DNA of 64,000 nt from Erpobdella octoculata (taxonomy: Eukaryota > Annelida > Clitellata > Hirudinida > Erpobdellidae): NCBI GenBank assembly GCA_963978895.1, contig OZ022240.1:10774307-10838306 (forward strand), read 5' to 3'. The notes under the pieces are model-generated. The model was not told the origin of the DNA and searched no databases. It saw only the letters and a program-made list of their open reading frames with translations. Below are positions 1,174-46,732 of this stretch, one piece after another. The first letter of the stretch is position 1. Each line of letters opens with the position of its first letter. The translations under genes and the position numbers were made by a program.

Positions 1174-1218
1174 GAGTTCTGATTATGGCTAATAAAGCCG
1201 AAACCTGCAGGTCAGCTC
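1174..1218 (+). ncRNA. Hammerhead ribozyme of a PLE, core base G8 mutated
   Basis: Stem I GAGUU/AGCUC (1174-1178 with 1214-1218), core CUGAUUA at 1179-1185 instead of CUGANGA (G8 to U), stem II GGCU/AGCC, then GAA, palindromic stem III ACCUGCAGGU and C17 at 1213 before the expected cleavage point. G8 is catalytic in hammerheads, so this copy should be inactive. The AUG at 1185 is made of A9, U and the first stem II base, and opens the reading frame of the leader that follows. Confidence 0.8.
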
Positions 1219-1381
1219 ATGACCAAAACATTAATATAAATATATACCAGTTGGTTCAAAAATGTCTTGGTATTTCCGATTTTCGAAAAGTTTCACGGTT
1301 GATAGAAAAAGTTTGTAATAAGAAATGGGCCATAGTCTTTAATAAAGCGTGTCTGAAAGAACAGCTTGTTCCTAATTATTT
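1185..1381 (+). pseudogene. PLE 5' leader running into (TA)n
   Basis: Open frame from the AUG inside the hammerhead. After about 40 variable residues it shows the leader motif shared by all PLE ends in this window: K-W-A-I-V-F-N-x-A-C-L-K-E followed by P-x-Y. Six residues later the frame enters (TA)n and only reads I-Y repeats, so no RT follows. By comparison with the other ends (37231, 45222, 46061) this is the end of a PLE pseudo-LTR. It probably represents the N-terminus of the PLE protein (inference). Confidence 0.7.
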
Positions 1382-1382
1382 G

Positions 1383-1550
1383 ATATATATATATATATAT
1401 ATATATACATATATATATATATATATATATATATATATATATATATATATATATATATATATATATATATATATATATATATATATATATATATATATAT
1501 ATATATATATATATATATATATATATATATATATATATATATATATATAT
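1383..1550. repeat. (TA)n microsatellite, about 168 bp
   Basis: Pure TA repeat apart from one TACA interruption. It begins where the PLE leader ends. The I-Y repeats in the frame across it are an artefact of the repeat. Confidence 0.98.
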
Positions 1551-1555
1551 AAAAG

Positions 1556-2275
1556 TTAAGAGGGACTCACTTGAGTGCCGGTGCCCACTTAAGTTCGGGG
1601 GACCAATTTAGTGTGGTGGCTCACGTGAAAACAGGGGTGGGAGTCACTTAAGTGCTGTGGACCACTCAAGGGCGGGGAGCCCACTTAAGTGTGGGGAACC
1701 ACTTTAATGCCGGAAAACCCACTGAAAAGTCCGGGAAGGGCTACTTAAGTAAGTAAGGGCCCACTTAGGTGCCGGGAGCCCACTTAAGTGCAGAGGCTCA
1801 AGTAAGACCGAAGCCCACTTAAGTGCGTAGAGTGCGGGGGGCCCCTTGAGTGCGTAGGGCTCACTTCAGTGCTGGGCACTTTTAAGTACGTGGGGCCAAC
1901 TTTAGTGCCGTGGGCCTACTGAAAAGTCCGGGAAGGGCTATTTTAAAATCAGGAGGGGTCCACTAACTTATGTGCCGAGGGCCCACTTAAGCGCGGGAGA
2001 CCACTTAAGGGCGGGGCCCACTTAAGTGCGTTGGGCCCACTTTACTGCGTGGGGCCCACCTTTAGTACCGGGGCCCCTTAAGTATGTGGGGCCCACTTTA
2101 GTGCCGGGAGCCCACTAAAAATTTCGGGAAGGACCACTTAAAAATCCGGAGGCCCCACTAACTTAAGTGCGTGGGGCTCATTTTAGTGATGGAGCCCACT
2201 TAACTGCGTGGGGCCCACTTAACTGCGTGGGGCCCACTTAAATGCGTGGGCCCACTTAACTGCGTGATCGCCCTC
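1556..2275. repeat. GC-rich degenerate minisatellite with CTTAAG cores
   Basis: About 720 bp of imperfect tandem units of roughly 20-30 bp, each close to GGGCCCACTTAAGTGCGTGG. The palindromes GGGCCC and ACTTAAGT recur throughout. A longer unit with a CCACTAAAAATCCGGGAAGG-like part occurs about every 200 bp (near 1735, 1920 and 2110), which suggests a higher-order repeat. No open reading frame. GC content contrasts sharply with the AT-rich flanks. Confidence 0.9.
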
Positions 2276-2289
2276 TTCCTGCCCCCACT

Positions 2290-2585
2290 AATTGACGTCC
2301 CTGGCTTTGCCATGGAGCGCTTTGTAGACCAAAATCCCAATTTTTTAAGTAATGCGCTCAGAGATACGCAGCAACCGGAGTTCAGTTTTCATTATTTCAG
2401 TCTCATGATCATGTTTCTTTAGTCCACCAAAAAAACGAGCAGCCGCATTTTGAATACGTTGAATCTTTTCAACAGCACCAAGAAGTAAGCCTGTGAATAG
2501 AGAGTTGCAATAGCCAAGTCGACTGACAACAAACGAATGCAGCAGGGGACATGTTGCTTCATTTGTTAGAGACCTTCGTATGGTT
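2290..2585 (-). pseudogene. CR1/Jockey-like LINE fragment, end of RT ORF
   Basis: On the minus strand this codes for the region after the RT fingers and palm: Y-C-N-S-L-F-T-G-L, then R-I-Q-N-A-A-A-R, then L-V-Y-K-A-L-H-G, the usual end pattern of CR1/L2/Jockey-type ORF2 proteins. One in-frame stop lies before the K-I-G-I-L part. It is 5' and 3' truncated, lying between the minisatellite and a (TA)n tract. Confidence 0.8.
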
Positions 2586-2594
2586 CTAAGTTGT

Positions 2595-2712
2595 TATATA
2601 TATATATATATATATATATATATATATATATATATATATATATATATATATATATATATATATATATATATATATATATATATATATATATATATATATA
2701 TATATATATATA
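2595..2712. repeat. (TA)n microsatellite, about 118 bp
   Basis: Uninterrupted TA repeat at the end of the LINE fragment. Confidence 0.98.
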
Positions 2713-2950
2713 CATTCTATGACAAAGAAACGCATTCGCATACAACTCTAGCGACAGAATTATTAAATAATAACAAAATTACCAAATTTGAATTAAAAAT
2801 TCAGAAATTGTTTAAATTAATTTAAGATAATAATACTGCAATTATGCTGATGTAGTAGTACTTAGCATACAGTCTATATGAAAACACCACAAAGTGAATA
2901 AGCAGCCATTTTTAAATAGACCAGAGACAATGGTCACTTAGGTTAATATA

Positions 2951-3525
2951 CCGACCTTTCCTCCCCTCCGAAAAATTCCAAGCTGAAATTTTCTTTTTTT
3001 TATTTTAGTATTTCATTTAATGTCTACAGATAAGTTGATCCTCTATATAACTGATGTTTTATTTTACATTTTTGACAGAACGTTTAGCTTATAACGTGGG
3101 TTAAAAAATCAAACATACCAATAAAAAATATTAATACTCATAAATCATTTTGAACAATAGGGTTAAAGACACATAGGTTTGATACAATTATTAACTTCTT
3201 CTTTCATCAGAAACGGACTTTTATAAACGGTAGCTTTTGTCCCCCCAGGCAGCCGGGCTCAATTCCCCCCTGAAAACCCGACCTTTCCTCCCCTCCGAAA
3301 AATTCCAAGCTGAAATTTTCTTTTTTTATTTTAGTATTTCATTTAATGTCTACAGATAAGTTGATCCTCTATATAACTGATGTTTTTATTTTACATTTTT
3401 GACAGAACGTTTAGCTTATAACGAGGGTATTTAATTTAACTTTAGTATTAAAATCAAACATACCAATAAAAAATATTAATACTCATAAATCATTTTGAAC
3501 AATAGGGTTAAAGACACGTAGGTTT
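2951..3525. repeat. Direct repeat of about 230 bp, two copies
   Basis: The segment starting CCGACCTTTCCTCCCCTCCG occurs at about 2951-3175 and again at about 3280-3525, with small indels. The spacer of about 100 bp ends with a C-rich stretch. No coding potential seen. It looks like a local tandem duplication about 330 bp long. Confidence 0.85.
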
Positions 3526-45223: not shown

Positions 45224-45251
45224 TATATATATATATATATATATATATATT
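45224..45251. repeat. (TA)n between convergent PLE leaders
   Basis: 28 bp only, with + strand leader on the left and minus-strand leader on the right. Confidence 0.95.
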
Positions 45252-45401
45252 TTTGAACGTATTTCGGCATAATGTTTTCTTTTAGGCATGCTCTGTTAAA
45301 AATGATAGACCACTTTGCGTTGATACGTTTTTTCACCAAGCTTTCAAAATTTCTTGAATTCATGATAACTACGCTTTTTTAAATAGATTTATTAAAAACG
45401 A

Positions 45402-45443
45402 GGGCTGACCGTTCGGTTTCGCAGAAAAGCATCTTCGGAGCCC
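45402..45443 (-). ncRNA. Hammerhead ribozyme, U4 mutated
   Basis: Stem I GGGCU/AGCCC, core CCGAAGA (U4 to C), U, two-pair stem II GC/GC, GAA, stem III ACCG-AA-CGGU, C17. Probably inactive. Confidence 0.72.
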
Positions 45444-45734
45444 TTTAAATTATGAAGTTAAAATGTATTTACTATAATGCGAAAATAGAATGAAACTATA
45501 AAACGACAAGAATAAACGTTAATGAAAACTGAAATAAAAAAACAACGTATGGAAAGTGGAAAGCAAGATATAAAAGGTAGGTAACTAACGTACAAGATTA
45601 GTAAAAACCGAAGCGGAAAATCATTGTAAACAAAACGAAAACATGGCGATAGTGGCCGCAGCGCAGGTATTTACGCGACTATGCACTAGGTAATTGTTGT
45701 CAGGTGCGCGCAATCAGGCTAGGTACGTCTACCG

Positions 45735-46010
45735 CGTCGTATTGTTATATTAACGTTGTTGCAAGTCGAGCAAATAGCTGGAAAGAAGACACGGACTCCA
45801 CCGGAAGACGGTCATCGGACAAGTCACCAACGCCGCGGCTACGCACACTTTCAGGACTGGAGTTATCACGTGATGGGGATCCATGGACGGGACACAGGCC
45901 CTGGCCATCATTGCCGACGACGTCAGCGATCGGAAGGTGAGCAGGAGTAAGAGGGCCGACTCCTTGGTTGCCACGAGAAATAAAGTTGTCCTCGCCGCTC
46001 ACCGATGAAC
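45735..46010 (-). pseudogene. PLE-5 C-terminal tail
   Basis: Minus-strand open frame (from about 46010) rich in Ser, Gly, Val and Pro with no recognisable domain, upstream of a PLE-type UTR and hammerhead. Assigned by position. Codon use is GC-rich compared with its flanks. Confidence 0.5.
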
Positions 46011-46061
46011 GTATCAACGCAAAGTGGTCTATCATTTTTAACAGAGCATGCCTAAAAGAAA

Positions 46062-46189
46062 ATATATATATATATATATATATATATATATATATATATA
46101 TATATATATATATATATATATATATATATATATATATATATATATATATATATATATATGTATATATATATATATATATATATATATAT
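46062..46189. repeat. (TA)n between convergent PLE leaders
   Basis: About 128 bp with one TATG interruption. Confidence 0.98.
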
Positions 46190-46443
46190 TTTCTTTTAAA
46201 CAGGCTCTATTAAACACAATTGACCACTTAACATTAGTCATCTTTCTTAGCAAGTTTTTAAAGCCCTTTTCATCCATTTGAAACGACGAGACATATATTA
46301 AAGAATTTATTGGTTAAAATAGTTAAATGATAAAACGATCAGGGTTAACTGGCCAGTTTCAGCTATAAAAAGCCATCTTCAGAACCCTATGTTAAACAAT
46401 AAATTAAATATTAAATATTATAAAAGTTGAAAGGGAAAAGTTA
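46190..46443 (-). mobile_element. PLE pseudo-LTR: hammerhead plus leader
   Basis: Minus strand: hammerhead 46388-46341, then ATG 46277 and leader [14 protein letters not shown] running into (TA)n at 46189. Right end meets a second (TA)n at 46444. About 250 bp in all. Confidence 0.8.
46341..46388 (-). ncRNA. Hammerhead ribozyme, complete core, perfect stem I
   Basis: Stem I AGGGUU/AACCCU (6 pairs), CUGAAGA, U, stem II GGCU/AGCU, GAA, palindromic stem III ACUGGCCAGU, U17. The best-paired copy in the window. Confidence 0.92.
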
Positions 46444-46574
46444 AATATATATATATATATATATATATATATATATATATATATATATATATATATATAT
46501 ATATATATATATATATATATATATATATATATATATATATATATATATATATATATATATATATATATATATAT
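46444..46574. repeat. (TA)n microsatellite, about 131 bp
   Basis: Left boundary of PLE-6. Confidence 0.98.
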
Positions 46575-46690
46575 TCTTTTAAGCACACTCCGTTAAAAAC
46601 TATGGCCCACTTGGCGTTTATCAATTTTTTATGGTGCCCTCGATTTTGCGGTAATTGAAAGACGTGAGACTTGTTTCAGATGTTTTATTT

Positions 46691-46732
46691 GTCTTACTGC
46701 AGTTTCGGAAATCCTTTTCGATCTTCAGAGCC
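46691..46732 (-). ncRNA. Hammerhead ribozyme, core complete, flawed stems
   Basis: CUGAAGA, UCGAAAAGG-AUUUCC stem II with a mismatch, GAA, stem III ACUGCAGU, A17. Stem I GGCU/AGAC has one mismatch. The only one of the thirteen without the core AUG (AUC here). Confidence 0.68.

Follow-up and report, generated by a model that had tools for sequence, protein, structure and literature searches.

The DNA analysed here, referred to as the window, is a stretch of 64,000 nucleotides from Erpobdella octoculata (assembly GCA_963978895.1, contig OZ022240.1, positions 10,774,307 to 10,838,306), in which thirteen hammerhead ribozyme folds accompany Penelope-like elements (PLEs) and the conserved PLE leader. 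The subject of this report is an AUG lying within the ribozyme core, formed with an extra U between the conserved A9 and stem II. A preliminary description of the window had listed the folds and had proposed that this U is kept because it supplies a start codon, which self-cleavage would separate from the open reading frame (ORF).

All thirteen folds were returned, at the places originally described, by a covariance model built from these same 13 folds and used in an unfiltered search of the whole 64-kb window (E ≤ 2.3e-9; the next match has E = 1.3). Since the search model came from the 13 themselves, independent support for the folds is given by covariation. Compared with 500 shuffles, which take no account of relatedness among the folds, 94.9% of 158 cells are paired (a percentage reached by 0/500), both sides change in 10 of 13 pairs (1/500 as high), and neither the two-sided cells nor the covariation score is reached by any shuffle (0/500 for either); in the same test, further pair types are not above the shuffles (249/500). 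Rfam 15 reported no hammerhead, either over the whole window at gathering scores or over the 34-47 kb region up to E 10.

The core CUGANGA ... GAAA is arranged around three helices, as in mini type I hammerheads. A canonical hammerhead core, which is an active form, passes directly from A9 to the 10.1 pair of stem II, whereas the column after A9 is U (U10) in 13/13 window hammerheads. AUG is formed in 12/13, the exception being the copy at 46691, which reads AUC, and AUGG in 9/13; the extra U and both counts agree with those first given. The copies at 1174 and 41084 are probably dead as ribozymes, because the former carries a G8 to U change and the latter has no stem III.

At three places in the window the core AUG is in frame with the leader and the frame is open, as had been claimed for the copies at 1174, 37388 and 41312. 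The family A copy (1174..1218, plus strand; AUG 1185-1187), in which G8 is changed to U, opens a frame through the conserved leader to an (AT)n run (1185..1382); that of family D (37387..37430, minus; AUG 37417-37419) runs through the leader over 37246..37419; and that of family F (41311..41354, minus; AUG 41341-41343) opens 52 codons in frame with the leader (41188..41343), inside which it is frameshifted. A second family F copy, the one with AUC replacing AUG (46690..46733, minus), begins in the same frame as its leader and then shifts. Three further copies, beyond what had been noted, are in frame with the leader and interrupted by stops: 2 in family H (45049..45093, plus), 1 in family I (45402..45443, minus; core CCGAAGA) and 3 in family J (the copy at 46341; 46342..46387, minus). 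The leaders of I and J have their own ATG, as does that of family G (43871..43916, plus). In family B (7638..7681, minus) the AUG frame has 9 codons and the leader is in frame 2.

Families C and E have short upstream ORFs (uORFs). The family C hammerhead at 37031..37076 (plus; PLE-1, 37032) opens 12 codons plus a stop, ending 4 bases before the leader ATG, and the family E hammerhead at 38029..38073 (minus; PLE-2) opens 18 codons whose stop overlaps the leader ATG as ATGA; both arrangements are present as reported. Each family also has an inverted hammerhead, for C at 34601..34646 (minus), in an inverted copy of the pseudo-long terminal repeat (pLTR) region, and for E at 41084..41122 (plus, stem III deleted). 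Reverse transcriptase sequences (RVT_1) lie at 35210..36856 (plus) as an ORF fragment of family C and at 39164..40855 (minus) as the ORF of family E.

The probable use of the core AUG as a start is indicated by related loci of the same genome (designated L). Family A, to which the window copy at 1174 belongs, has a tandem array in which two 1147-codon ORFs, differing at 2 bases, begin at the core AUG, with an in-frame UGA just upstream and the first methionines (Met) at codons 1, 399 and 440. The array ribozymes read CUG AUG AUG, A6-U7-G8 being a second in-frame start candidate in a poorer context. Family A was considered in 27 copies, one in the window and 26 in other loci, with reading by eye where the regular expression missed; 24 were open and in frame through the leader motif or point variants of it, L001 exits the element before the leader, and L116 and L117 carry frameshifts. 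Family K ('MAFEPK', L074 and L075) also begins at the core AUG, with the next Met at codon 180 and open frames of 1160 and 1183 codons reported by search. The same holds for family F ('MEKDFRN', L062, L063, L066 and L067), where the next Met is codon 139 and the frame of one copy, L036, has 986 codons. The ORFs of A, K and F are long, and in none of them does another Met precede the conserved leader; in these three families the core AUG thus very probably serves as a genuine start codon, and this part of the original proposal is supported. The predicted cut falls 26 nt after this codon in A and 25 in K and F (also 26 in E, where the codon is not used as a start), so that cleavage would remove the start, in line with the separation of start and ORF proposed at the outset.

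D, M (L085:998) and N (L074:120) include copies laid out as in the users, with no full-length ORF seen for these three; they likely use the core AUG as well, and H possibly does. A start inside the hammerhead was found in A, K and F and was not found in C, E, G, I, J, L093, L048 and L053. Among database proteins, residues 1-160 of the family A ORF gave 634 candidates, none at E ≤ 0.001, and a regular expression for a ribozyme-type N-terminus, applied to 120 listed PLE proteins, gave one match, P0078, starting inside the protein. The N-terminus of another database PLE protein, P0063, apparently reads through an extra-U hammerhead in another frame (TEDG...TETC).

In order to evaluate the stretch between the cleavage site and the leader motif as coding sequence, changes were counted among distinct copies (18 sequences for A, 9 for K and 12 for F), leaving out those more than 15% different from the commonest sequence (2/30 for A, 7/18 for K, 5/29 for F and 4/13 for E, totals which include places seen twice). 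In A, K and F pooled, 30/52 changes fall at third codon positions (P 3e-4), and 27/52 are synonymous, compared with about 20% expected for all changes; the synonymous excess has P 3e-5 at an expectation of 25% and 0.009 at 35%, as for transitions alone, all these P values being optimistic because the copies are related. By family, third positions account for 11/20 changes in A and 15/23 in K. In the unused ribozyme frame of E the figure is 3/8, a small and imperfect control, since this stretch holds E's own coding start in another frame.

Several observations weigh against start use in these families. For F alone the count of third-position changes, 4/9, is not significant. Beyond the leader motif, third positions are not in excess in A (9/25) or F (12/40), with 6/10 in K, presumably because many copies end there in (AT)n. 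Only 238 codons of K were read, the 5' side of the L075 ribozyme is truncated, and an in-frame reading that stays open through the leader exists in just 6/16 K-type loci, the others having stops, frameshifts or an earlier end. Some F copies have no AUG (AUC at 46691, AUU in L040), and the four long-ORF F loci carry C4 for U4 and, judging from this change, may cleave poorly. That they keep the AUG despite a ribozyme-weakening C4 fits coding use more than processing. The resulting CCGAAGA core is shared by these four loci (L062, L063, L066 and L067) and by family I (L097, L098, L100 and the window copy at 45402).

The extra U itself was analyzed by pattern counts over the window's own assembly (386 Mb, 94 contigs). 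The U10 core with stem II GGC..GCC and N7=T gave 319+293 = 612 exact matches, the reversed control none (0). With the same stem II and N7 free, 10 matches had a base other than U at position 10, and 0 lacked the inserted base; in this stem II context, therefore, the extra U is at or close to fixation. The 10 non-U10 matches carry C, A or G, two of them being identical and close (G000:C3:9911007-9911029 and 9919683-9919705), and are possibly another small family. The covariance model found 118 ribozyme places (the 13 of the window, the others in fetched loci; because of overlaps between loci, certain places enter the count twice). Five were not parsed, and the other 113 reduce to 55 distinct sequences, in which bases 10 and 10.1 are UG in 52 and UC, UU and AG in 1 each, that is, U10 in 54. 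The core in this genome is thus CUGANGA-U-G, with U10 near-universal in the sampled ribozymes.

This U is also retained where the core AUG is not the start. By eye, 17 families with a recognisable leader were distinguished. Random frames after the AUG, named in the preliminary description as an outcome contrary to its proposal, were found in part: the frame is in register and open in 6 families (A, K, F, D, M, N), in register with stops in 4 (H, J, L093, L048), out of register in 5 (C, E, L053, V, B) and mixed between copies in 2 (G, I). Single decayed copies deviate (K-like L004, L010 and L018; C copy L004:1119). Among the copies read, no other Met precedes the leader in 5 of the 6 open families, one D copy (L072:126) having one, whereas in 8 of the other 11 families an ATG of their own stands 16-27 codons ahead of the leader motif, with none in H, V and B; U10 is retained in families starting at such a downstream ATG, C, E, G, I and J among them. 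The AUG in 12/13 window copies was accordingly rejected as coding evidence in itself, because A9 and G10.1 are near-invariant and U10 is found in non-users too.

In family V (L069-L087 and related loci), which has many similar copies, some in tandem, the leader frame holds no Met before the first reverse transcriptase-proximal one. Near the expected start it has ACG in a good context, in 16/16 matched copies, and it possibly uses a non-AUG start. A spliced intron was considered from the sequence and dropped, as nothing supports it.

A tree was built from N-terminal parts (14 rows; 5 of 8 database rows were dropped for want of the motif, and long branches were flagged). It places F with E at 84/89 support and A with a G-like copy at 85/86, K standing alone. 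E is the probable sister of F by this grouping, and their ribozymes are nearly identical, F using the core AUG and E not; the use of this codon as a start has therefore probably changed between families without loss of U10. On the tree the users do not cluster (3 changes; 218/500 shuffles as low), and a single origin is compatible with it, as the well-supported branches force a minimum of 1 change.

We infer that A9-U10-G10.1 is set by the ribozyme, U10 being near-universal most likely for folding or catalysis, and that the AUG so spelled by the catalytic core was co-opted as a start in some families; this account is held with good confidence. U10 would be kept between A9 and G10.1 for the sake of the ribozyme and, as a by-product, the core would read ANG-AUG-G, in which the start codon has A6 at -3 and, in most cases, G at +4. 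Since A at -3 and G at +4 favour initiation, this would be a good start context. Families A, K and F, likely D, M and N, and possibly H would have recruited it, the others using their own ATG before the leader motif. A cut 25-26 nt after the codon would then leave a 3' RNA without the start of the reverse transcriptase, and one RNA could be a messenger or a cleaved unit, not both. A parallel exists in the (+) hammerhead of the chrysanthemum viroid CChMVd, which has an extra A10 between A9 and G10.1 and in which, according to passages of PMC3705267 (summarising De la Pena and Flores 2001), A10 to U raises the trans-cleavage rate 3-4-fold, while C and G are strongly harmful. The insertion has the same place and U there is faster; the differences, as far as that summary goes, are that the viroid is not translated and that its natural residue is A. 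The 10.1-11.1 pair is described in a passage of PMC3088659 as the most conserved hammerhead pair apart from 15.1-16.1. Two points tell against the catalytic account: the rate effect was measured in trans in a viroid ribozyme rather than in a PLE, and the no-insertion core, canonical and active, has 0 matches in the stem II context searched, an absence which catalysis alone does not explain.

The original claim, that selection maintains U10 in order to supply the start and so couples processing to translation, is quite improbable. It agrees with the fact that A, K and F have no Met ahead of the leader other than the core AUG, with the near lack of any base other than U at position 10, and with family F, where N7 is A, A9-U10-G10.1 is the sole core AUG and the long-ORF loci keep it despite the changed U4. 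It does not account for U10-G10.1 being kept in families which start elsewhere, including E beside F, and in V, where the AUG opens just MTN-stop; moreover, N7=U cores hold an AUG (A6-U7-G8) even without the extra U, which in A, K and N would serve in its place. A regulatory role of the core AUG in own-ATG families, as a uORF start with, for example, reinitiation at the ATGA overlap, is improbable. The uORF has 18 codons in the family E window copy at 38029 and in L061, L068, L050, L033 and L034, with the ATGA overlap in the window copy and L061; but 13 codons are found in the E copy L055, 16 in that at window 41084 and 15 in an E relative (L057:909), and non-user frames vary from 3 to 18 codons. 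The conserved uORF spacing that was to be looked for is thus not found between families.

It could also be argued that the core forces an AUG, that one in three is in frame by chance, and that translation really begins about 31 residues before the motif, at a codon that has decayed or is not AUG. Frame 0 is found in 10/17 families of our own grouping (P = 0.03), frame counting alone being weak evidence; openness occurs also outside frame 0 (C, E, B); the ACG of family V lies near the expected place; and among 120 listed of 3000 PLE proteins, 73 have the motif near the N-terminus, 52/73 with a Met 30 or 31 residues before it. Chance is nevertheless very improbable, given that the open 1147-codon ORF of family A lacks any Met at codons 2 to 398, that the linker of the pooled A, K and F copies has an excess of third-position and synonymous changes not seen in the small E control, and that there is a precedent in another animal.

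This precedent is the Poseidon PLE of Anolis carolinensis, PAc, in which the ORF starts at stem II of the hammerhead and the cut falls 26 bp after the start codon (PMC11167929, Frangieh et al. 2024). A start inside a hammerhead is therefore an arrangement already known, in print for this one element. PAc forms tandem units and inserts at AT-rich sites (PMC11167929); family A resembles it in the 26 nt distance and the tandem units. PAc is a single element, whereas here three long-ORF families are found in one genome beside families starting elsewhere, and its cleavage was shown experimentally, with assistance by protein (PMC11167929), whereas the cut site is here predicted from sequence.

A further step, which we regard as unlikely though worth setting out, is a one-way switch from messenger to template in A, K and F. 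The reverse transcriptase would be translated only from uncut RNA and would then promote cleavage by its own ribozyme, as the PAc protein does in vitro, removing the sole start codon. The cut RNA, not translatable into the enzyme, would become a unit-length substrate, kept silent by the lack of an in-frame AUG for about 140-400 codons. The PAc results point in both directions. Cleavage assisted by the protein agrees with a feedback switch, but in vitro insertion was unaffected in cleavage mutants, and RNA-seq had no reads ending at the cut site (PMC11167929). Loss of the start by cleavage as a switch is not discussed for PAc in the passages of PMC11167929, nor was it found in the titles and abstract openings listed by searches of an open-licence library.

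Mini type I PLE hammerheads (Cervera and De la Pena 2014; Lunse et al. 2017; via PMC7761336) have in common with those described here the location in the pLTR, the minimal stem III and the tandem elements; use as a start codon is not described for them in the passages of PMC7761336, where the in vivo role of PLE hammerheads is called a mystery. If the reverse transcriptase of several families has its only start codon 25-26 nt upstream of the cut, a given RNA could be translated or cleaved, not both, which is directly testable, and E and F, with near-identical ribozymes and different starts, offer a natural comparison. Cleavage by the HDV-like (hepatitis delta virus-like) and twister ribozymes of non-LTR retrotransposons leaves the ORF start intact, whereas here the predicted cut would remove it. 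They too lie near the 5' end, and transcript processing and promotion of translation have been suggested for them (passages of PMC7761336). The present families suggest a route by which translation can come to use a catalytic core whose sequence happens to read as a good start codon.

We take the elements to be PLEs from characteristic motifs and the leader. RVT_1 was found in 4 of 5 proteins scanned with Pfam, one of the 4 being below the cut-off, and the family E protein has 3000 homologues at E ≤ 0.001, 120 of them listed. The scan gave no GIY-YIG match in the 5 proteins; a YIGHTRTT motif is visible, and PF01541, which we take to be GIY-YIG, occurs in 1/120 listed homologues. Family A consists of tandem units with pLTRs, the ribozymes being spaced by 3830 and 3829. 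No related loci were confirmed in the viral contig and genome contig collections.

In elements C and E the pLTR region with its ribozyme is inverted on the other side (34526-35052 / 36625-37151 and 38043-38320 / 40837-41114, respectively), so that hammerheads stand opposed at both ends. Solo ribozyme-leader copies run into (AT)n at 1383-1551, 37830-37893 and 46445-46574 of the window, a pattern that PLE insertion into AT-rich DNA, together with reverse transcription initiated internally, would produce. Near retroelement-like ORFs, at 15352-15658, 16540-16996, 30599-30905 and 31867-32176, there are long arrays built of a 14-15 base unit, for example CACGACAAAATGTT, which occurs in both orientations.

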